A stretch of DNA of 64,000 bases from Psychrobacillus vulpis (GTDB lineage Bacteria > Bacillota > Bacilli > Bacillales_A > Planococcaceae). How positions within the stretch are numbered: the stretch's first letter is position 1; every line of letters begins with the position of its first letter. Where the stretch lies: the NCBI RefSeq assembly GCF_006861825.1, contig NZ_VDGI01000002.1:1-64000 (forward strand). The letters are read 5' to 3'. The notes beneath the pieces were generated by a model. The model had not been told where the DNA came from and made no database searches. It was given only the letters and a program-made list of their open reading frames with translations. Shown here piece by piece: positions 4,332 to 56,101 of the stretch. Position numbers and translations under genes: made by a program.

Positions 4332-4592
4332 TTAAGGAAGTTTAGGTGCTGTCCATAATTTAATTAAGACAAAAATAGAAATAATCGCAACGAGAAATGT
4401 AATAATTGATCCAACCATTATGCCATTTGTGAATAATGAAAAAGCTAAAAAGAGAAGAAAAGCTATAAATACAATGGTTCCCAAAGTAAAGCAACCCATA
4501 CCAATATTTTTAGCCTTTTCAGGAACTTCATTAGACGTTGTTGCAGCTCTCTCAATTGTTTTCAACTTTTCGCGAAAATGTAAATCTGCCAT
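4332..4592 (-). CDS. small two-helix membrane protein, unknown
   Basis: An 86-residue protein with a polar N-terminal 35 residues and two hydrophobic helices (about residues 33-53 and 58-78). I do not recognise the family. The ATG at 4592 is preferred because AAGGAG is eight bases upstream; the ATG two codons earlier is too close to it. The gene is 70 bases upstream of pdxK on the same strand and diverges from the DUF4230 gene. Confidence 0.65.
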   Translation of the reverse strand: MADLHFREKLKTIERAATTSNEVPEKAKNIGMGCFTLGTIVFIAFLLFLAFSLFTNGIMVGSIITFLVAIISIFVLIKLWTAPKLP

Positions 4593-4696
4593 CTGCATAT
4601 CTCCTTTTTTTCATCGTAACACGTATGGAATAGTTGTTAATAGAGAAACTTTTAGGTACTGTTAACGTAATAGAATGAGAGGAAAAGAGGGATGAC

Positions 4697-23212: not shown

Positions 23213-23237
23213 GAAGTCGATGCATCAAGAATATTTT

Positions 23238-23405
23238 GAACATAAAGGTGCTTGCTAGATTACTAGTAAGTTAAAAGGGAAGCTGGTTCGAGTCCAGCAC
23301 GGTCCCGCCACTGTATGTGATAGAACTTATCACGAGTCAGAAAACCTGCCTTTATGCGTTACACTTTAGTGCCTACGAGGATAGGTTTCGTGTAAGTCAG
23401 CTTGG
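23238..23405 (+). ncRNA. cobalamin (adenosylcobalamin) riboswitch
   Basis: The leader contains the conserved aptamer blocks: AAAGGTGCTTGC at the 5' side, GGGAAGCTGGTTCGAGTCCAG, CGGTCCCGCCACTGTA and the B12 box GAGTCAGAAAACCTGCC near 23334-23350. It precedes B12 transport genes. The downstream terminator hairpin suggests control by transcription termination when cobalamin is abundant. Confidence 0.95.
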
Positions 23406-23470: not shown

Positions 23471-23495
23471 TTTTAGAACAATGGGGGAATGGAAC

Positions 23496-24476
23496 TTGAA
23501 GAAATTATGGCAATTATGGATGACAGCCGCATTAGCAGTGCTATTGCTAGTAGGGTGTGGCCAAAAAGAAGCGACACCTGTCGAAAATACGGATAAGCCA
23601 AAAGAGGAAGTTGTAAAGGAAACTGCTGCGGATGAAGCTACATTTCCGTTAACAATAACCGATGCAGTTGGTAATGAGATTACATTAGAAGAAGCTCCAA
23701 AGACAATTGTTTCAATGATGCCAAGTAATACGGAAATTTTGTTTGCACTTGGATTAAATAATGAAATTGTTGGTGTAAATGACTTTGATAATTATCCAGC
23801 AGAAGCACTTGAAAAAGAAAAAATCGGTGGAATGGAATTCAACGTAGAAAAAATCGTTGGAATGAATCCAGATATCGTTTTCGCACATGAATCTAGCCTA
23901 GGAATGGGTGAGGCTGGTCTGCAACAAATTCGTGATGCTGGTGTGAAAGTTTTCGTTGTAAAAAATGCAGCGGACTTTAATGAAACATACACTACAATTG
24001 AACAAATTGGACGTGCTACTGGAAAATTAGCAGAAGCACAAAAAATTGTGGAAGATATGAAAGCTAAAGTAGAAGAAGTAAAAGAGAAAGTTGCAAAAGT
24101 AGAAACGAAGAAAACAGTATTCGTAGAAACATCGGATGTTCCTGAAATTTACACACCTGGTAAAGGAACATTTATGCAAGAGATTTTAGATATGGTGAAT
24201 GCTGAAAATATTGCAGCAGACCAAGAAGGTTGGTTCAAAATTGAGCCAGAAGAAATTGTAAGCCGCAATCCTGATGTGATTATTGTTATGTATAGCTATG
24301 TAGAAGGTATTGTGGATAGCGTGAAGGCTCGTGATGGATTTGATACTATTACAGCTGTGAAAAATAATGAAGTTGTACAAGTAGATGAAAACTTAACAAG
24401 TCGTACAGGTCCTCGTCTAGCAGAAGGTCTAGAAGAAGTAGCGAAAGCAATTTATCCAGAGGCATTTAGTGAGTAA
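23496..24476 (+). CDS. btuF: cobalamin ABC transporter substrate-binding lipoprotein BtuF
   Basis: A 326-residue lipoprotein: signal peptide MKKLWQLWMTAALAVLLLVG with a lipobox cysteine (LLVGCGQ), then a periplasmic-binding fold of the BtuF/FhuD type (TIVSMMPSNTEILFALGL, PDIVFAHESS, NPDVIIVMYSY). It captures corrinoids for BtuC and BtuD. Start is TTG 23496 because GGGGGA lies just upstream; the ATG at 23481 has no such site. It is the first gene behind the riboswitch. Confidence 0.93.
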   Translation: MKKLWQLWMTAALAVLLLVGCGQKEATPVENTDKPKEEVVKETAADEATFPLTITDAVGNEITLEEAPKTIVSMMPSNTEILFALGLNNEIVGVNDFDNYPAEALEKEKIGGMEFNVEKIVGMNPDIVFAHESSLGMGEAGLQQIRDAGVKVFVVKNAADFNETYTTIEQIGRATGKLAEAQKIVEDMKAKVEEVKEKVAKVETKKTVFVETSDVPEIYTPGKGTFMQEILDMVNAENIAADQEGWFKIEPEEIVSRNPDVIIVMYSYVEGIVDSVKARDGFDTITAVKNNEVVQVDENLTSRTGPRLAEGLEEVAKAIYPEAFSE

Positions 24477-25464
24477 AGCCATGATCGGCTACATCTTGTC
24501 AATTGCTGCCCTTATAGTAGCAATTTGGCTAGGTGTATCGGTCGGATCCGTAAAGGTACCGATCAGTACATTATGGGACACGGGAGCAGATGCAATCGCG
24601 ACCAATATAGTTTGGAAAATTCGCATGCCGCGTGTAGTACTTGCAGGGCTAGTTGGTGCATCACTAGCCATTGCAGGTGCTGCGTTTCAAGGGTTATTAA
24701 AAAACCCGCTTGCCGATCCTTATACGTTAGGAGTGTCGTCCGGTGCCTCAGTAGGTGCCGTGGCTACGCTCTTTTTCGGTATTTCGATGCCTTTTTTAGG
24801 GATATACACGCTGCCAGTTTTCAGTATGATCGGCGCGTTAGTTACAATGCTTCTTGTTATTTCTTTTGCAAAGCTAGTCGATCGTGCGATGAAAATGGAG
24901 ACAATTATTTTAACCGGTATTATTTTTAGTTCTTTTTTAGGCTCAGTCATTTCTTTGATGATTGCACTTACTGGTGAAGAGCTACGTCAAATTATTAGTT
25001 GGTTACTCGGTAGTGTGTCGATGCGTGGTTGGAGTTTTGTGCAGATGGCACTTCCTTTTGTAGTAATTGGTACACTTTTATTATGGCTAAACAGAAGAGA
25101 ACTAAATGCGATGCTTTTTGGAGAAGAACGTGCAAAGCATTTAGGCGTTAATGTGAAAAAGCGAAAAATGATGATATTAATTGGTGGTTCCATGCTTACT
25201 GGAACGGCGGTTGCTGTATCGGGAACGATAGGGTTTGTTGGTCTTGTTGTTCCGCATATGACAAGACTATTATTTGGCTCTGACAATCGTCACGTACTTC
25301 CTCTTAGCTTCATTAACGGAGCGGCATTATTAATCATTTGCGATTTAGTGTCCCGGACGATTATTTCTCCAACAGAGTTACCGATTGGTGTTATTACTTC
25401 ATTTGTTGGAGCACCGGTTTTTGCTTATATTTTCTTCAGACAACGAAAAAAAGGAGGCAATTAA
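24469..25464 (+). CDS. btuC: cobalamin ABC transporter permease BtuC
   Basis: A 331-residue FecCD-family permease with about ten membrane helices and the family blocks KIRMPRVVLAGLVGASLAIAG, GAAFQGLLKNPLADPYTLGVSSG and GTIGFVGLVVPHMTRLL. It starts with GTG overlapping the btuF stop by eight bases; ATG 24481 is an alternative. Together with BtuF and the BtuD domain of the next gene it forms a corrinoid importer. Confidence 0.94.
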   Translation: MSKAMIGYILSIAALIVAIWLGVSVGSVKVPISTLWDTGADAIATNIVWKIRMPRVVLAGLVGASLAIAGAAFQGLLKNPLADPYTLGVSSGASVGAVATLFFGISMPFLGIYTLPVFSMIGALVTMLLVISFAKLVDRAMKMETIILTGIIFSSFLGSVISLMIALTGEELRQIISWLLGSVSMRGWSFVQMALPFVVIGTLLLWLNRRELNAMLFGEERAKHLGVNVKKRKMMILIGGSMLTGTAVAVSGTIGFVGLVVPHMTRLLFGSDNRHVLPLSFINGAALLIICDLVSRTIISPTELPIGVITSFVGAPVFAYIFFRQRKKGGN

Positions 25465-25465
25465 T

Positions 25466-26935
25466 ATGTTAAAAATAGAAGGTTTATCGGGTGGATACGA
25501 TAACAAATTGATTATTAAAAATGTCTCCTTTTTCGTTGCAAAAGGTGAAATGCTTGGTATTCTTGGACCAAATGGGAGCGGGAAATCCACTTTGTTAAAG
25601 GTAATAAGTGGAATATTAAATATGGAGTCTGGGAATGTTCTCATTGAGGGAAAGCCCTTAAAATCCTATTCATCAAAAGATCTAGCCAAGAAAATGGCGG
25701 TTCTTCCACAATTACATAGTCATGCATTTTCACATACAGTCAGGGACACGATTGCACTTGGTCGGTACCCTCATCAAAGTGGTTTGTTTTCATCTTGGTC
25801 AATTGAAGATGAAGCGGCGGTTGTGGAGGCAATGAAACTGACGGCTATCGAAAGATATGAGAGTCAAATGTTAGACCTTTTATCCGGTGGCGAGCAACAG
25901 CGCGTATTTGTTGCACAGGCACTTGCCCAACAAGCACCTATACTACTACTCGATGAACCAACAAATCATTTAGATATAGCACATCAAAAGCAATTGCTCG
26001 ATACGATCAAAACGCAAGCGATTGAAAAAGGAATCACGATTGTTAGTGTGTTTCATGATATAAATCTTGCGTCTTTATACTGTGATCGGTTGTTGTTAAT
26101 GGATCAAGGAGAGATAAAAGTAATTGGTGCACCACATGAAGTAGTAACGAAAGATCAAATTGAAACGGTTTACGAAGCACGTATTAGCACAAATCCACAT
26201 CCTGAACGTCCAAAGCCTCAAATTACGATTCTTTCGGACGTAAATGAAAAGAACAATGATAAGCTAATTACAACAGAAAATTTTCAAGTAACAGGAGAAC
26301 TAGTTGTTTTTCAAGCAGAAACGCAACTAAAAACTTGGTCATCTGCAGTAACAAATGCTGGTAGTGGTTGGTATAGAACTTTTGTCAATAGAAGAGTGGA
26401 TGCAAATTATGCATGTGATAATGTACATGAGGAAATGTTAGAGTTTCTAGTGAACCGAGGGTTTTCCGAGGCAGATACAGTTGGTATGATGACAGCTGTA
26501 AATACTACGGATGCAGTTATTAAAGAGTATAAAACTCCATTTGGAAATGTTGTCATCATGGTAACTGCTGGAGTAGGAAACGCAGTAGACGTATCGAGAA
26601 CGCATGAAGTAGAAATGCTACCTGCAATTGGGACGATCAATACATGGATTATCGTAAACGGAGAGCTTTCTGATGAAGCGTTTATACAATCCGTCATTAC
26701 TGCAACAGAAGCGAAAACAAAAGCGCTCGCATTTGAACAAGTAAAGGATCCCCGTACTGGAACGATTGCAACAGGAACATCAACTGATAGTATATTAGTT
26801 GCAGCAACACAACGTGGAGTGCATATTCCGTATGCAGGACCAATCACGGAAATCGGTAAAAAAATCGGACTTGGCGTATATGAATGTACAGTCGAAGCGA
26901 TTCAAATTTACAAAAAAGCGAAAGGCTGGGATTAG
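25466..26935 (+). CDS. BtuD-CbiZ fusion: corrinoid ABC ATPase plus cobinamide amidohydrolase
   Basis: A 489-residue fusion. Residues 1-255 are an ABC ATPase: Walker A GPNGSGKST at 34-42, signature LSGGEQQ near 138, Walker B ILLLDEPTNHLD near 160. Residues from about 270 onward match CbiZ, adenosylcobinamide amidohydrolase (STDSILVAATQRGVHIPYAGP near the end). CbiZ removes the aminopropanol side chain from adenosylcobinamide or pseudocobalamin precursors to give adenosylcobyric acid, which CbiB then re-uses. Fusion to the transporter couples uptake to remodelling. AAGGAGGC precedes the ATG, one base after btuC ends. Confidence 0.92.
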   Translation: MLKIEGLSGGYDNKLIIKNVSFFVAKGEMLGILGPNGSGKSTLLKVISGILNMESGNVLIEGKPLKSYSSKDLAKKMAVLPQLHSHAFSHTVRDTIALGRYPHQSGLFSSWSIEDEAAVVEAMKLTAIERYESQMLDLLSGGEQQRVFVAQALAQQAPILLLDEPTNHLDIAHQKQLLDTIKTQAIEKGITIVSVFHDINLASLYCDRLLLMDQGEIKVIGAPHEVVTKDQIETVYEARISTNPHPERPKPQITILSDVNEKNNDKLITTENFQVTGELVVFQAETQLKTWSSAVTNAGSGWYRTFVNRRVDANYACDNVHEEMLEFLVNRGFSEADTVGMMTAVNTTDAVIKEYKTPFGNVVIMVTAGVGNAVDVSRTHEVEMLPAIGTINTWIIVNGELSDEAFIQSVITATEAKTKALAFEQVKDPRTGTIATGTSTDSILVAATQRGVHIPYAGPITEIGKKIGLGVYECTVEAIQIYKKAKGWD

Positions 26936-26937
26936 TA

Positions 26938-27897
26938 ATGGGTCCACATATTATCGCAATAGCGATTGGACTAGTACTAGACCGGATTATTGGCGATCCA
27001 CCAAATTGGCCTCATCCAGTCCGTTTTATAGGTTCGCTCATTTCAAAGCTAACAATTTGGTTGAATAAAGGTAGTGCACGGAAAGCGAAAGGGTTTCTAC
27101 TTGTTTTTATAGTAATTGGAATAACTTTCTCCGTTACGTTAGCTATTTTAATAAGTGCTTATTCCATTCATATGTGGGTTGGAATTGCTGTGGAAAGCAT
27201 TGTAATCGCTTCAGGACTCGCTCAAAAAAGTTTAAAAGAAGCAGCGATGGACGTATACAAACCATTGATGGCAAATGATTTTTCTGCTGCAAGAGAAAAA
27301 CTTTCGTGGATTGTCGGAAGAGATACGGAACAGTTAGATGAAAAAGAAATCACACGTGGCGTTGTGGAAACAGTATCCGAAAATATTAGTGATGGGATTA
27401 CTGCTCCACTTTTTTACGCATTTGTTTTTGCTGGTGCACCTGGTCTTTGGGTGTATAAAGCAATAAATACGCTCGATTCGATGGTTGGATACAAAAATGA
27501 GAAATACGAGGATTTTGGATACGCTTCAGCTAAGCTAGATGATATTGTGAACTATATACCAAGCCGTTTAACGGGATATATCATTATGTTGTGGGGCAAA
27601 AAAGAGAGCAGCTTACCTTTTAATAAACGAATAAAGGGCTGGTGGCTTGATGCGAAAAAGCATCCAAGCCCGAATAGTGGCTATCTAGAAGCAGCAACAG
27701 CTTATCAGCTCGGAATCCAACTCGGAGGGATAAATACTTACAAGGGTATCGTTTCAAACCGAGCGCTAATGGGGATTGGCGAGGTTCCATTAACACCAAA
27801 TCATATATTAAGTGCCATCTCGCATTTGAATACAGCAGTATTTCTGTTTTGGCTTTGGATGATGGTGATTGGAGGGATATTGTTTGTCTTTACCTAA
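26938..27897 (+). CDS. cbiB: adenosylcobinamide-phosphate synthase CbiB
   Basis: A 319-residue membrane enzyme that joins adenosylcobyric acid to (R)-1-amino-2-propanol phosphate. Family blocks are GLVLDRIIGDPPNWPHPVRFIGSLI, VETVSENISDGITAPLFYAF and DGMV-like NTLDSMVGYKNEKYEDFG. Start is ATG 26938, three bases after the fusion gene. Its 3' end overlaps cobD by 14 bases. It uses the product of the CbiZ domain and of CobD. Confidence 0.94.
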   Translation: MGPHIIAIAIGLVLDRIIGDPPNWPHPVRFIGSLISKLTIWLNKGSARKAKGFLLVFIVIGITFSVTLAILISAYSIHMWVGIAVESIVIASGLAQKSLKEAAMDVYKPLMANDFSAAREKLSWIVGRDTEQLDEKEITRGVVETVSENISDGITAPLFYAFVFAGAPGLWVYKAINTLDSMVGYKNEKYEDFGYASAKLDDIVNYIPSRLTGYIIMLWGKKESSLPFNKRIKGWWLDAKKHPSPNSGYLEAATAYQLGIQLGGINTYKGIVSNRALMGIGEVPLTPNHILSAISHLNTAVFLFWLWMMVIGGILFVFT

Positions 27898-28960
27898 TCA
27901 TGGAGCAAATGCTCATCATGTATATGAACGTCTAGGTCTCGAAATGCCAGAAACGGTTATTGACTTTAGTGAAAATGTGAATCCAATTGGACCTCCAGCA
28001 TTTGTGAAGGAGCGGTGGGACTCGTATGCACCGCTAATCACTAAGTATCCAGATCCACATGGAGAGCCGTTTTTATCAGCAGTTGCAAAGTTTCACAATG
28101 TGTCAGCTGATAAAGTAATCGTGAGTAATGGTGCCGCTGAAATTTTCGCAAGCCTAGCAAAACGATATGAAAATAAACGTGCAGTTTTGATTCACCCTAC
28201 TTTTTCGGAATACGCCGCAACACTTGCCCCTTATAATGTTTACATAAAAGAAATAATCGCAACTGGGGCTTTGCCTTTAGAAAAAGTATTTGGTGAAATA
28301 GAGTTTGCAGAAGTTATTTATATTTGTAGACCAAATAATCCAACCGGCTATTTAATGCCTTTAGAAGAAATTATTCGAATCGCAGATTATGCAAAAAGAT
28401 ATAAGTGTGAAGTCGTTTTAGACGAAGCGTTTCTTGACTTTATAGACGAAAAAGAATCATTTATTCCATATTTAAAGGATTTTTCGAACGTTATTGTTGT
28501 ACGTTCGATGACGAAAATGTATGCGATTCCAGGCTTGCGACTTGGTTACGCAGTGGCTAGTGAACCAATCGTAGACGAGATTCGTTCTAGAATGCCCCAT
28601 TGGAATAGTAATGCAATTGCGACAACAATTGGTGCAGATTGTTTAGAAGAAGAACAGTATCGACTGCAGGCAATAAAATTTGCTAAAGAAATGCGGGAGC
28701 AAATGACTGTGTTTCTAGAAAAATGGAACTGCATTGTTCTTCCGTCTACGGCTAATTTCATTTGCTTTCAACTGCCCAATCCCTCCCTTTCTAAAGAGTT
28801 TTTTGAGTATTTATTAGCAAATGGTTGCGTACTTCGCCATACGGAAAATTTTAAAGGACTCGACGGAAAATGGTTTAGGGTTGGAATGAAACAAAAGCCG
28901 CAAATGGAGCACTTGCAAAAGGAGATGACCGCATGGTTCGAGGAAAACTTGTCTTCATAA
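27884..28960 (+). CDS. cobD: threonine-phosphate decarboxylase CobD
   Basis: A 358-residue PLP enzyme of the aminotransferase class I/II fold. It decarboxylates L-threonine phosphate to aminopropanol phosphate for CbiB. Supporting blocks are DFSENVNPIGPPAFV, CRPNNPTGYLMPL, LDEAFLDFI and the lysine motif VRSMTKMYAIPGLRLGY. Start is TTG 27884, with GGAGGG eight bases upstream inside cbiB. Other family members (HisC-like aminotransferases) are less likely given the context. Confidence 0.92.
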   Translation: MSLPNHGANAHHVYERLGLEMPETVIDFSENVNPIGPPAFVKERWDSYAPLITKYPDPHGEPFLSAVAKFHNVSADKVIVSNGAAEIFASLAKRYENKRAVLIHPTFSEYAATLAPYNVYIKEIIATGALPLEKVFGEIEFAEVIYICRPNNPTGYLMPLEEIIRIADYAKRYKCEVVLDEAFLDFIDEKESFIPYLKDFSNVIVVRSMTKMYAIPGLRLGYAVASEPIVDEIRSRMPHWNSNAIATTIGADCLEEEQYRLQAIKFAKEMREQMTVFLEKWNCIVLPSTANFICFQLPNPSLSKEFFEYLLANGCVLRHTENFKGLDGKWFRVGMKQKPQMEHLQKEMTAWFEENLSS

Positions 28961-29463
28961 CAGGTGGAGTGAGAAGTGGAAAAAGTAACTTTGCCGAACA
29001 TTACTTAATGAATGAACAAGCAAAACGAAATGTGTATGTCGCTTCTGGAGTTGCAGTAGACGATGAAATGAATGAACGCATAAAAAGGCATCGAGATGAT
29101 CGTGAAAATTATCCGGTTGAATGGGTAACAATCGAGCAACCGCGACGCTTTGAAGAGGTAGTTCAGCAAATTAATCAAGGGGACGGCATCCTTTGGGATT
29201 GTGTAACAACTTGGCTCGCAAATGAGCTGTATGAAGGACAAATAGAGGAAGTAGAAAAACAACTCTATGTAGCAATTGACCAGTTATTAGAAAAAGCAAA
29301 AGTAGTTGTTATTGTTTCGAATGAAGTGCTGGACGAACCATTATCCAAATACGAAAGTGTTGTTCTCTATCAAAAATGGATAGGAAGAATTCATCAAAAG
29401 CTTGTGGAAAGAGCAGATCATGCCTTCGAAATGGAATACGGCTTAAGTCATCAGTGGAAATGA
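28933..29463 (+). CDS. cobU: adenosylcobinamide kinase/guanylyltransferase CobU
   Basis: A 176-residue bifunctional enzyme that phosphorylates adenosylcobinamide and then transfers GMP to make adenosylcobinamide-GDP. The P-loop GGVRSGKS is at residues 11-18, and the guanylylated histidine is expected in KRHRDDRENYPVEW (His53). It overlaps cobD by 28 bases with AAAAGGAG inside cobD. A second, shorter CobU-like gene lies at 31569. Confidence 0.94.
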   Translation: MVRGKLVFITGGVRSGKSNFAEHYLMNEQAKRNVYVASGVAVDDEMNERIKRHRDDRENYPVEWVTIEQPRRFEEVVQQINQGDGILWDCVTTWLANELYEGQIEEVEKQLYVAIDQLLEKAKVVVIVSNEVLDEPLSKYESVVLYQKWIGRIHQKLVERADHAFEMEYGLSHQWK

Positions 29464-29471
29464 GGGGTAAT

Positions 29472-30302
29472 ATGAAAGGCTTGATGGTACAAGGAACCGC
29501 TTCTAGCGTAGGGAAAAGTTTAGTTTGTACAGCTATTTGTCGACTTCTTTCAAATGAAGGGAAGCAAGTGGCACCTTTTAAATCACAAAACATGTCTAGC
29601 TTAAGCACACGCACAGAAGAAGGTTTGGAAATAAGTGTTTCTCAAGCGCTGCAAGCAAGAGCTGCAAGGACTCCTTATTTAGCAGAAATGAATCCAATAT
29701 TATTAAAACCTACAGGAAATATGGAATCTGACATTATTATTCTTGGAAAAAAAGAAAATAGACTGAATGGAATGCGTTATCGAGATCAGTTCTTTGAGGA
29801 AGGTCAAAAACTCATTACAAACAGTATAAAGACTCTTTCTGCATCCTATGAATACTTGATTCTAGAAGGTGCTGGCAGTCCTGTAGAAGTGAATTTAAGG
29901 GATCGGGAATTAGTAAATATGAGAGTTGCTGATTTGGCGAATGTTCCGGTTTTATTAGTAGCAAACATTGAATATGGTGGTGTGTTTGCGTCCATTGTTG
30001 GCACGCTTGCACTTTTACCGGAAGCGCAGAGAGCTCGAGTAAAAGGGATTATTATTAATAAGTTTCGGGGAGACATTTCATTATTTCAAGAAGGAATTGA
30101 CTTCATCGAAGAGTATACAGGGATAGACGTAATAGGAGTAGTTCCTTATTTTCAGAATGAATTTGAAGAAGAAGACGGAGAAGCAAAAAGTAGCGAAAAT
30201 GCATCCGATGAACATATTAATGAATGGGCTAGTCATTTTAAAAAGTATATAAAGTGGGATAAAATCATAGCAATTTTAAATAGTGATGTGGTGAGTAAAT
30301 GA
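29472..30302 (+). CDS. CobQ/CbiP N-terminal domain protein lacking the glutaminase domain
   Basis: A 276-residue protein that is clearly CobQ in its N-terminal half: P-loop GTASSVGKS (8-16), VAPFKSQNMSSLSTRTEEGLEIS, QALQARAARTPYLAEMNPILLKPTGN, and VANIEYGGVFASIVGTLALLP. Normal cobyric acid synthases have about 490-510 residues with a C-terminal class I glutamine amidotransferase domain. Here that domain is absent: the frame ends cleanly in an ATGA overlap with cobS. No glutaminase remnant is visible around it. It cannot perform glutamine-dependent amidation alone, and because the pathway starts from cobyric acid via CbiZ, that step may not be needed. Function is open. Confidence 0.85.
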   Translation: MKGLMVQGTASSVGKSLVCTAICRLLSNEGKQVAPFKSQNMSSLSTRTEEGLEISVSQALQARAARTPYLAEMNPILLKPTGNMESDIIILGKKENRLNGMRYRDQFFEEGQKLITNSIKTLSASYEYLILEGAGSPVEVNLRDRELVNMRVADLANVPVLLVANIEYGGVFASIVGTLALLPEAQRARVKGIIINKFRGDISLFQEGIDFIEEYTGIDVIGVVPYFQNEFEEEDGEAKSSENASDEHINEWASHFKKYIKWDKIIAILNSDVVSK

Positions 30303-31048
30303 CTAGTCTATTGTTAGCTCTTCAATTTTTTACTATTGTTCCAGTGCATAAAAATTTGCCGATGGAAAGACGTTCGATTACAGGAATGTATAGTATTTTT
30401 CCATGGGTAGGTACTGTCATTGGAGCATTTGCTTGCCTATTGCTTTATTTTGAATGGAGTCATTTGATGACTGCATTTAGTATTGTCCTTTTAGGAATCA
30501 TATTCTCTGGGGGACTCCATATGGATGGATTTATTGACACTTCAGATGCTTTTTTTTCTTATAAGGATCGACTGAAACGATTTGAAATACTAGATGATCC
30601 AAGAGTTGGCGCATTTGGAGTAATGGCTGTTGTATTATTAGTCGTTGGTAAAGTTATTATTGTGTCCGAAGTGTTGTTGGCAGAATCGTTTCATTGGGTT
30701 TTTATCTTGCTGATCCCTTTTTTCTCTCGAACTACACTTGCTATGTTATTTTCTCTAACGAATAGTGCAAAAGCTAGTGGACTTGCTTGTTATTTTAAGC
30801 AAAAAATGAATGCATCGGATGTAATAGTTGCAAATGTACTCAACTTTGTAATCGGCGTCATCATTTTAGGGTGGCTGACGAATTGGACGGTTTCTCTAAC
30901 ATTTGCAATTATTTTAGTACTCTTTGTATGTTTATTTCGCAATTGGTCACTTAAAAATTTCGGTGGAGTTACTGGTGATTTGCTTGGAGCTAGTTTAGAA
31001 GTTTCGGAGGTAGTACTATGGCTGACACTTTTACTGTTACTCTCGTAA
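30299..31048 (+). CDS. cobS: adenosylcobinamide-GDP ribazoletransferase CobS
   Basis: A 249-residue integral membrane enzyme joining adenosylcobinamide-GDP to alpha-ribazole or its phosphate. The conserved acidic motif GGLHMDGFIDTSDAFFSYKDR (about residues 76-96) and the FGGVTGDLLGASLEVSEV motif near the end are present. Its start overlaps the stop of the CobQ-like gene by four bases, and its 3' end overlaps cobC by 31 bases. Confidence 0.94.
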   Translation: MTSLLLALQFFTIVPVHKNLPMERRSITGMYSIFPWVGTVIGAFACLLLYFEWSHLMTAFSIVLLGIIFSGGLHMDGFIDTSDAFFSYKDRLKRFEILDDPRVGAFGVMAVVLLVVGKVIIVSEVLLAESFHWVFILLIPFFSRTTLAMLFSLTNSAKASGLACYFKQKMNASDVIVANVLNFVIGVIILGWLTNWTVSLTFAIILVLFVCLFRNWSLKNFGGVTGDLLGASLEVSEVVLWLTLLLLLS

Positions 31049-31617
31049 GGCATTTTCCAACGAAAGGGAATCAGGAGAAAAAATATATTGGTTGGACCGA
31101 TGAGCCAATCATTACTGGCATGAAACCGAAAAAATTGTCTCAAGATATGAAACAAGTTGTCTGTAGTGATTTGCTTCGATGTAAACAAACGGCAGAACAA
31201 TTATACGGAGAAACTCTCTATACTGTGAATGCAAATTTTCGAGAATGCTCCTTTGGTGATTGGGAAGAAAAAACATATAATGAATTAAAAGAAGATGTGC
31301 ACTATAGGGATTGGATTAATAACCCTCGTCAAATTACACCTCCAAATGGAGAGTCATTGGAAATAATGGAAGCCCGAGTGTTATTAGCATTTTATGAAGT
31401 AGTGGAGCAATTGAAGTTTCCAACTATTGTAACGCATGGGGGGCCAATTCGTTTTTTATTAACAAAGTTTGCAAATGTTGAAAAGAGTTTTTGGGATTGG
31501 GATGTATTACATGGATGCAGTTTCACACTACAATGGGCAAATAAAAGTGACGTATTGGAGGGAAAGCAGTGCATGTCATTTTCGGTGGAGCATTTAATGG
31601 AAAACGAACGTATGTAG
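31018..31617 (+). CDS. cobC: alpha-ribazole phosphatase CobC (histidine phosphatase family)
   Basis: A 199-residue member of the phosphoglycerate mutase-like histidine phosphatases: LVRHFPTKGNQEKKYIGWTDEP (catalytic His in RHF), SDLLRCKQTAEQLYG, ECSFGDWEEKTYNEL and IVTHGGPIRFLL. In this operon the likely role is dephosphorylation of alpha-ribazole phosphate or adenosylcobalamin phosphate. GGAGGTAGTACT precedes the ATG inside cobS. Assignment depends partly on context. Confidence 0.85.
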   Translation: MADTFTVTLVRHFPTKGNQEKKYIGWTDEPIITGMKPKKLSQDMKQVVCSDLLRCKQTAEQLYGETLYTVNANFRECSFGDWEEKTYNELKEDVHYRDWINNPRQITPPNGESLEIMEARVLLAFYEVVEQLKFPTIVTHGGPIRFLLTKFANVEKSFWDWDVLHGCSFTLQWANKSDVLEGKQCMSFSVEHLMENERM

Positions 31618-31961
31618 AAAAAATGTTACAAGAACGTCATCAACAATCTGTCGAGTGGCTAGATGCCACTGTAAATACGCCTGTTTTATCTCCAAAAACA
31701 GAAACGATTGTCGTGTATGGCGTGGAAAATGTTCCAGAGGAAGGCTTGAATATGTTATTAAAACAAATCGAGCAATGGGAAGAAAAAGTAGAAATTATTG
31801 TAATAGCAACAGAAATTGGGCGTGGAATCGTACCAATGGAGGCAGGGATGCGCAAGCTTCGAGATGATGTAGGAAGATTTTATCAACAACTTTTTACAAA
31901 AGCGGAACGGGTTACAAGAATTTGGTATGGTATTTCACAAACGATAAAGGGAGATGTGTAA
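31569..31961 (+). CDS. short CobU-like protein, probably degenerate paralogue
   Basis: A 130-residue protein starting with GTG at 31569. The N-terminal IFGGAFNGKR replaces the P-loop GGARSGKS, and the C-terminal EIGRGIVPMEAGMRKLRDDVGRFYQQL strongly resembles the end of CobU (NEVGxGIVPxxxxxRxFRDxxGRxxQ). The middle is shortened and the guanylylated-histidine motif (RHRxxRP...W) is missing. The gene is tightly packed between cobC and the adenosyltransferase with an upstream GGAGGG, so it is probably translated. It may be a regulatory or partner subunit; function unknown. Confidence 0.75.
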   Translation: MHVIFGGAFNGKRTYVEKMLQERHQQSVEWLDATVNTPVLSPKTETIVVYGVENVPEEGLNMLLKQIEQWEEKVEIIVIATEIGRGIVPMEAGMRKLRDDVGRFYQQLFTKAERVTRIWYGISQTIKGDV

Positions 31962-31963
31962 AG

Positions 31964-32554
31964 ATGAAAATTTATACAAAAACAGGGGATAAAGGGCAAA
32001 CAGGTTTAATTGGGGGAAGAACGGACAAGGATAATGTACGTGTAGAAGCGTACGGTACAATCGATGAGTTAAATTCATTTATCGGAAAAGCCGTAACAGA
32101 ACTAGACCCAGCTATTTTTGCAGATATTTTAGTAGACTTAGAAACTATTCAACATGAACTATTTGATTGTGGTGGAGATCTTGCAAACGTATCGAATCGT
32201 AGAGTATATAAAATGACGGATGAACCAATCGAAGCTATGGAAAAACGAATTGATGTGCTAGTGGAAGAGGGACCAGTGTTAGAGCGTTTCATCCTACCTG
32301 GCGGAACACCAGCAGCTGCAACACTTCATATTGCACGTACAATTACGAGACGCGCGGAAAGACAAGTCGTGACATTGACGAAGGCAGAAGAAGATGTTCC
32401 GGCAGTTGTACAGCGCTATTTAAATCGTCTATCTGACTATTTATTCGCAGCGGCTCGTGTAGCTAACGCTCGAGTAAATGTTTCAGATGTCGAATACGTA
32501 CGCAGTGCAAAAGTATTTAAAAACGTAGGAAGTGTGAAAAAAGAGGGGGAGTAA
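31964..32554 (+). CDS. PduO-type ATP:cob(I)alamin adenosyltransferase
   Basis: A 196-residue PduO-family adenosyltransferase: MKIYTKTGDKGQTGLIGGRTDKDN (ATP-binding N-terminus), VEAYGTIDELNSFIGKA, FILPGGTPAAATLHIARTITRRAER and YLNRLSDYLFAAARVAN. It attaches the 5'-deoxyadenosyl group to cobalt, giving the adenosyl form used by CobU/CobS substrates and by IcmF. Start is ATG 31964, three bases after the CobU-like gene. B. subtilis YvqK is a homologue. Confidence 0.94.
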   Translation: MKIYTKTGDKGQTGLIGGRTDKDNVRVEAYGTIDELNSFIGKAVTELDPAIFADILVDLETIQHELFDCGGDLANVSNRRVYKMTDEPIEAMEKRIDVLVEEGPVLERFILPGGTPAAATLHIARTITRRAERQVVTLTKAEEDVPAVVQRYLNRLSDYLFAAARVANARVNVSDVEYVRSAKVFKNVGSVKKEGE

Positions 32555-32559
32555 GAAGG

Positions 32560-33042
32560 GTGAAGCTTCGTTTACTAACGCTCGCAGCAATGTTTGCGGC
32601 ACTATCGGCAATTGGTGCGTTCGTAAAAATTCCAGTAGGGATAGGGAGTGCGGCACTTGATACAGTACCAGCACTTGTGTCAGCTGCATTTTTGCCACCA
32701 GCCTATGCAGGAGCAGCATCATTAATCGGTCACTTATCATCTTCTCTTTATGCTGGATTTCCTTTCGGACCACTGCATATAATCATTGCCGCGGAAATGT
32801 TCTTGATTTTATTCGTGTATACGAGGCTACATCAAGCAAGACGATATGTGCTGAAATGGGTGTTTTTCATTTTTGCGAACAGCGTACTTGCAACGCTTCC
32901 GTTTTACTGGATTATTTCACCCGCATTTTTTGCAAGTGCATTACCGGGAATTACGATTGCAACCATTTTGAATGCTGGAATTGCAATGACCGTCTCACCA
33001 GTTATTGTGAGGGTAATGGAGAGAGTGAAAACCCATGCGTAA
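32560..33042 (+). CDS. cblT: ECF transporter S component, CblT-like (alpha-ribazole)
   Basis: A 160-residue membrane protein with five to six helices and an ECF S-component look (LAAMFAALSAIGAFVKIPVGIG at the N-terminus, AGFPFGPLHIIIAAEMF in the middle). Position beside a CblS-like gene in a B12 operon without cobT fits CblT, the alpha-ribazole S component known from Listeria and Geobacillus. Starts with GTG at 32560 after GAGGGGGAG. The energising EcfA/A'/T module must be elsewhere. Substrate is inferred from context. Confidence 0.75.
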   Translation: MKLRLLTLAAMFAALSAIGAFVKIPVGIGSAALDTVPALVSAAFLPPAYAGAASLIGHLSSSLYAGFPFGPLHIIIAAEMFLILFVYTRLHQARRYVLKWVFFIFANSVLATLPFYWIISPAFFASALPGITIATILNAGIAMTVSPVIVRVMERVKTHA

Positions 33043-33697
33043 TGCCGTTATATTGCCAAATGGATTAGTGTTGACGACAGATAACTCTGCAGGTATTGGA
33101 GAAAAATTAGATGATGTTGTTTCCATAGATGATGATGTAGTTTCTTATTTTGCAGGTAGAGTAACATTAATGGAACAGTGGGCAGCAGGCGCACATCCAG
33201 TTTCGATTATTGTGCATAATTTTTCTGGAAGTAAAAGCTGGAACAAATATGTGGCAGGTATTGAGAAATTATTTGTAGATCTAGGTCAGAGTTGTCCAGT
33301 AATAACAGGAAGTACTGAATCGAATATGGAAATGCTACAATCCGCAATGGCGGTCACGATGATAGGTGAAAAAAAGGAAAAAAGCGACCAAGATTTTACA
33401 TGGTATGTGTATGGAATGCCATGTGTCGGCGGAGAAGTTTTGGAGGAATCCGAGAAAATCGCTGACACGAAAAAAATCTGGGATGCATTGAATTGTGGGC
33501 TAGTTCAGCGAGTTTGGCCAGTTGGCTCAACTGGAATAGCAGAAGAGTGCAAACGAATTGGATTACGTGGAGAATTGGAAAACTGGGATGTGGAAAAATC
33601 GGCAGGACCAGCAACTTCTGTCCTTCTCGGCATTGCAAATAATCGAATAGAAGAAGCCAAGCTGCATTTTGGAAAGTATTTTGAAATAATTAGTTGA
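33035..33697 (+). CDS. cblS: CblS-like alpha-ribazole kinase
   Basis: A 220-residue soluble protein overlapping cblT by eight bases. It begins NAVILPNGLVLTTDNSAGIGEKLDDVVSI and contains VTLMEQWAAGAHPVSIIVHNFSG, a layout reminiscent of PurM-like ATP-binding proteins, and ends with a GPATSVLLGI motif. With the adjacent CblT-like transporter and no cobT in the operon, CblS (phosphorylates alpha-ribazole) is the best assignment. The family call is from memory and context and was not confirmed by a search. Confidence 0.65.
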   Translation: MRNAVILPNGLVLTTDNSAGIGEKLDDVVSIDDDVVSYFAGRVTLMEQWAAGAHPVSIIVHNFSGSKSWNKYVAGIEKLFVDLGQSCPVITGSTESNMEMLQSAMAVTMIGEKKEKSDQDFTWYVYGMPCVGGEVLEESEKIADTKKIWDALNCGLVQRVWPVGSTGIAEECKRIGLRGELENWDVEKSAGPATSVLLGIANNRIEEAKLHFGKYFEIIS

Positions 33698-55927: not shown

Positions 55928-56101
55928 GAAGAAAAGTTCATATCAAAACAACTTGCATATTAAAACAATATATGGTATTATGTTCTTCGTAAGTTTACAA
56001 ATTTCTGCTACATATACGATTGGCATCATTCGGATCGTGTAAGGTATCAGTTTCATAACCAACTCTGTTCCAGATGGTTCAGGGCGAGAGGAGAGATAAA
56101 G
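55928..56101 (+). promoter_or_regulatory. rpmE leader, possible L31 autoregulatory region
   Basis: A 174-base leader with several short pairing segments (for instance around CTCTGTTCCAGATGGTTCAGGGCGAGAGGAG). L31 leaders have been described in Firmicutes, but I cannot confirm the consensus by eye. Confidence 0.3.

Follow-up and report, generated by a model that had tools for sequence, protein, structure and literature searches.

The window analyzed here is a 64,000-nucleotide stretch of Psychrobacillus vulpis DNA, and it contains a B12 salvage operon in which cobQ (29472-30302, + strand, as are all features of the operon given below) encodes a protein of 276 amino acids. CobQ carries out the glutamine- and ATP-dependent amidation of corrinoid propionates (PMC7242693), and the short protein raises the question of what a CobQ does without its glutaminase domain.

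The operon has the order btuF, btuC, btuD-cbiZ, cbiB, cobD, cobU, cobQ, cobS, cobC, a short cobU-like gene, pduO and probable cblT and cblS, with a cobalamin riboswitch on its 5' side (23229-23367; Rfam RF00174, 74.3 bits). Reading frames and conserved operon order identify a btuF-like corrinoid-binding protein (23481-24476) and a btuC-like permease (24469-25464). These are followed by a fusion of the BtuD ATPase with the adenosylcobinamide amidohydrolase CbiZ (25460-26935; Pfam ABC_tran and CbiZ), the adenosylcobinamide-phosphate synthase gene cbiB (26935-27897; TIGR00380, 254.7 bits, cut-off 165.9), the threonine-phosphate decarboxylase gene cobD (27869-28960; TIGR01140, 268.5 bits, slightly below the cut-off of 290.6) and cobU (28933-29463; Pfam CobU). 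Downstream of cobQ, cobS (30299-31048; TIGR00317, 119.3 bits, cut-off 110) starts within the cobQ stop through the ATGA overlap already described from the sequence, and is followed by a cobC-like phosphatase (31018-31617; Pfam His_Phos_1). The second, 130-aa CobU-like protein (31569-31961; Pfam CobU, 38 bits, cut-off 27) matches only positions 104-167, the C-terminal part of the CobU profile, and is kept in the operon across genera. The next gene, also conserved in the operon (31922-32554), we take from its sequence and general knowledge to encode a pduO-type adenosyltransferase. The last two are an ECF substrate-binding component (32560-33042; Pfam ECF_trnsprt), likely CblT for alpha-ribazole uptake as judged by context, and the likely alpha-ribazole kinase gene cblS (33035-33697), which is named from its position after cblT and has no match in the Pfam or NCBIfam scans. 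Genome searches find neither CbiD nor CbiA in this organism, which is thus limited to corrinoid salvage.

The family scores place the short protein within CobQ and show which part of it is missing. It begins with the CobQ P-loop GTASSVGKS (residues 8-16, 29493-29519), common to full-length and short CobQ, and its amidoligase domain also retains K37, the invariant EGAGS motif (residues 132-136, 29865-29879), E139 and N141. The NCBIfam profile for cobyric acid synthase, NF001989, scores 331 bits (cut-off 273) over positions 2-244 of 480 only, while TIGR00313 (CobQ/CbiP) reaches 305.7 bits, below its cut-off of 309.9, and TIGR00347 (BioD) 36.6 bits, far below 83.3. The Pfam scan returns an AAA_26/CbiA match and no GATase_3 domain with its nucleophile Cys and His; about 200 residues are gone internally. 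The half-length profile match and the missing GATase_3 confirm the sequence-only reading of a CobQ-like protein devoid of a glutaminase domain. All Psychrobacillus orthologues found share this architecture, which therefore does not stem from a sequencing error.

The short protein is not simply truncated. In alignment with the full-length CobQ of related salvage loci (L067 and L068), residues 1-236 correspond to the amidoligase domain, the junction at residues ~236-245 (30177-30206) marks the loss of the ~200-residue glutaminase domain, and residues ~246-271 (30207-30284) correspond to the extreme C-terminus of CobQ, with the tail EHINEWASHFKKYIKWDKIIAIL pairing with VDRYDLWAEHVKSHIDWQAVSQMM of L067. 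The glutaminase domain has thus been removed from inside the gene, and the length of 276 residues noted earlier stands, though not as the result of a simple early stop. The short tails are on average 37% identical to salvage-type full-length CobQ vs 24% to de novo-type CobQ. In an AlphaFold2 model of the short protein (pLDDT 82.5, pTM 0.87) the tail forms two confident helices, 246-259 and 262-270, in a block with pLDDT up to 95. This model aligns, tail included, with dethiobiotin synthetase BioD (1dbs; Z 19.6, rmsd 3.1, 213 residues) and also with the synthetase domain of CTP synthase, which indicates that a complete stand-alone ligase fold is predicted to remain after the excision. The predicted fold is common to BioD, and a shared fold does not by itself show function. 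With the short protein as query, phmmer finds no match in the PDB, and a profile search of the PDB finds no solved CobQ structure.

Comparison across several hundred genomes places this excision in an evolutionary context. Of the 261 family genomes, 210 have a match. The slot between cobU and cobS holds short forms in four Planococcaceae genera (g1, g2, g12 and g17) and full-length CobQ in g5 and g13 as well as in four other families (L116-L119). In the tree, the short forms, 46 distinct sequences, group in a single clade (UFBoot 83) that is sister to the full-length CobQ of the same slot. As reconstructed from the alignments and this tree, these results show that the ancestral full-length CobQ of the slot lost its glutaminase domain by internal deletion, and that the core and the C-terminal helices have been kept under purifying selection in four genera. 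One short CobQ from a distant family (L114) shifts in the tree when the pocket columns discussed below are left out. In one locus (L077, genome G004) parts of the salvage operon, including the short cobQ, are repeated in tandem; this repeat may be an artefact, since the assembly is flagged as 7% contaminated.

The three states of the slot, full, short and absent, would fit a relic, that is, a CobQ losing its use in salvage-only bacteria, glutaminase domain first and whole gene later. We consider this very improbable. Within Psychrobacillus, dN/dS is 0.079 for the short cobQ, compared with 0.083 for cobD and 0.063 for cbiB, and a value near 0.08 is not that of a relic. Nearly all residues that are invariant in full-length CobQ, the catalytic ones included, are kept in the 46 short sequences of four genera, the reading frames are intact, and the monophyly of the short forms implies long retention. 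Full-length relatives at the locus do exist, which the sequence-only reading had coupled with decaying motifs as grounds against itself; the motifs here show no decay. The picture of a clean domain loss with an ATP-binding amidoligase core kept under selection is thereby supported.

If the core is kept, its ammonia must be accounted for. A GATase_3 search of the window genome, made because a separate glutaminase gene would have spoken against the earlier interpretation, finds no dedicated one and matches only PurQ, PdxT and HisH. Another glutaminase, for example the CbiA domain or a housekeeping subunit, could deliver ammonia in trans; these class I enzymes are available for it, and one relative discussed below (G219) has a CbiA with its Cys intact. 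We regard such a supply as improbable, because the window genome has no CbiA, its only stand-alone class I glutaminases found with GATase_3 are the three housekeeping subunits, and in G190, G216 and G292 the Cys of CbiA is gone as well. Urease was rejected as the supplier of ammonia, since it is absent from the window genome. Elsewhere its association with short CobQ is loose: 61 of 93 short-CobQ family genomes have urease, vs 3 of the 28 g13 genomes with full-length CobQ (classes read off result lists), but the pattern follows genus, with none in g12, and is confounded.

The simplest reading is an ammonia-using amidoligase, because a CobQ without glutaminase still carries the conserved core. 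The comparison of genomes suggests that the short protein has kept its corrinoid-amidating activity, with free ammonia as the probable nitrogen donor, and of the roles proposed earlier the use of free ammonia fits best. CobQ activation proceeds by acyl-phosphate chemistry. The short CobQ would bind an under-amidated corrinoid and phosphorylate a propionate carboxylate with ATP, and free ammonia would then attack the acyl phosphate, much as glutaminase-delivered ammonia does in the synthetase domain of the full-length enzyme. In the window organism, which has no CbiA or CbiD, it would complete or repair the side-chain amides of salvaged corrinoids, such as cobyrinic acid a,c-diamide or cobamides that have undergone partial hydrolysis, ahead of the CbiB step that adds aminopropanol phosphate. 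Such a substrate may well be available in salvage, as cobyrinate diamide uptake has been predicted for salvage genomes that have CbiP without ring synthesis, Paenisporosarcina among those listed (PMC8123684). The use of ammonia also has a parallel in CobB/CbiA, reported to accept either glutamine or ammonia (PMC8123684). We therefore consider it likely, though well short of certain, that the short CobQ acts before CbiB as a glutaminase-free corrinoid amidoligase, probably with ammonia as its nitrogen source, and completes or repairs side-chain amides.

The claim that all N-terminal motifs are intact holds nearly throughout, with three exceptions, of which the first two may bear on the substrate. 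Residue 44 is Asn in 22 of 22 full-length CobQ and Phe, Leu or Tyr in every short family sequence (Leu in the window protein, codon 29601-29603), and residue 55, Gly in nearly all of these 22, is Ser in each of the 46 short sequences (codon 29634-29636). The third, S236, lies at the old domain junction and is mostly changed in short CobQ. Read without gaps against CbiA, N44 falls across from the second Asp in the DYID motif of that protein, a region that we take to be important for acceptor binding in CbiA. A structure model of full-length CobQ for placing N44 and G55 against the glutaminase was poor (pLDDT 62.6) and was left out.

Since N44 and G55 are otherwise invariant, their replacement makes a shifted substrate or a different acceptor possible. 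The short protein could then be a neofunctionalised ligase or corrinoid-handling ATPase, which binds ATP and a corrinoid and acts on another carboxylate, uses a different amine or has become a carrier for CbiZ or CbiB, with the two replacements marking a new pocket. They are found in all 46 family sequences and recur in the short CobQ of L114; the operon could run from cobyric acid made by CbiZ; and genomes such as G192 have a full-length CobQ elsewhere besides the short one. We nevertheless judge this explanation unlikely. A glutaminase-free CobQ in another locus (L115) keeps the normal pocket, and the short CobQ with both replacements is the only CobQ in three genomes that have CbiA and CbiD. 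Moreover, operons with CbiZ, CbiB, CobD, CobU and CobS and without any CobQ occur in several genera (L097-L102, L104 and L107), so the short CobQ is not an obligate partner of CbiZ or CbiB, and the carrier role suggested by the sequence-only reading finds no support. A more general role of CobQ as an obligate CbiB partner, as for the unidentified protein alpha mentioned for P. denitrificans (PMC6249242), was rejected on the same complete operons. The accompanying statement that classical CobQ activity is not needed goes too far, given that full-length CobQ fills the slot in related salvage operons and that the short form is the only CobQ in the three ring-building relatives.

These relatives bear on the preferred reading of an ammonia-using amidoligase. 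CbiD is present in 82 family genomes. In G190, G216 and G219, which have CbiD, CbiA and a near-full cbi set, a search with the full-length profile finds the short form as the only CobQ; the G190 and G219 assemblies are single contigs. The same short CobQ thus appears to serve a ring-building pathway in a few relatives. The cbi cluster of G219 is intact, with CbiH, J, C, D, ET, L, F, G, A and BtuR, and shares 85-97% identity with its G180 counterpart. At the position of the full-length cobQ of G180, G219 has a scar in which the first codons ATGAAAGCGATTATGATT and a stop are followed by a stretch close to the 3' end, the mark of a ~1.3-kb deletion of full-length cobQ (L129, about 4540-4650). The loss in G219 may be recent and its pathway now broken; ammonia could also come from its CbiA in trans, as this CbiA keeps the Cys. 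G190 and G216 have no CobD above cut-off, which leaves room for an unusual or incomplete pathway in both. Their salvage operons (L078 and L079) are without cobD and btuFCD.

In G190 and G216, AEGGG replaces AECGG in CbiA, which turns the glutaminase nucleophile Cys into Gly. The same change is found in the unrelated genome G292. There an independently shortened CobQ adjoins CbiA and btuFCD; it retains both N44 and G55, and its junction differs. Among the CbiA of the loci examined, the Cys is missing in these three genomes only (L115, 5577-6965; L148, 9338-10738; L149, 9250-10650), and the only CobQ of these genomes is without a glutaminase domain. CbiA is without its nucleophile in three of the four genomes that combine CbiA with only a short CobQ, vs none of ~18 others (Fisher p 0.003), a comparison with an effective number of two because G190 and G216 are close relatives. 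In the CbiA tree G190/G216 and G292 are not sisters. A full-length CobQ in G528 (L122, 8809-10392), a genome without CbiD, has Val in place of the glutaminase Cys (GVGGGYPMM). It is about an even bet that several Bacilli lineages have switched corrinoid amidation to free ammonia in place of glutamine by convergent loss of glutaminase function. On this reading, the domain was excised from within CobQ two or more times, one full-length CobQ exchanged its Cys for Val, CbiA probably underwent the Cys-to-Gly change on two occasions, and all six amidations would be glutaminase-free in some genomes. In G341 a 956-aa frame (L120, 7400-10270) is an apparent fusion of CbiA, in its first part, with CobQ in its last 497 residues.

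The short CobQ is a derived variant of a known enzyme. It shares with CobQ/CbiP (EC 6.3.5.10; NF001989, TIGR00313) the whole amidoligase domain, the catalytic core, the C-terminal helices, the operon slot and a sister relation to full-length salvage CobQ, and differs in the missing glutaminase domain and the replaced N44, G55 and S236. BioD resembles it as a stand-alone ATP-dependent ligase fold without glutaminase, according to the model; however, the TIGR00347 score is below cut-off and the window genome has its own BioD-like gene (L002). A clear precedent is the single-domain NAD synthetase, an amide synthetase that works without a glutaminase domain and uses ammonia physiologically (PMC3376133). 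Its fold and substrate are unrelated, and its single-domain form is thought to be ancestral, in contrast to the secondary glutaminase loss in the short CobQ. The lipid II amidotransferase MurT/GatD also has a CobQ-type glutaminase apart from its synthetase, whereas the short CobQ is unaccompanied by a separate glutaminase gene. No description of a glutaminase-less CobQ was found in the literature searched, an absence that is weak evidence.

Annotation pipelines would label the 276-aa protein a cobyric acid synthase, as it passes NF001989, and the label would mask its inability to use glutamine by itself. If active, it would offer a small single-domain enzyme for studying the ordered series of four corrinoid amidations. 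It would then also demonstrate that nature can dispense with the glutaminase of the CobQ/CbiA family, and provide a second case for asking why ammonia serves some amide synthetases and glutamine others. Elsewhere in the window, an L31-Firmicutes ribosomal protein leader lies at 56063-56093 (RF03156, 34.4 bits).
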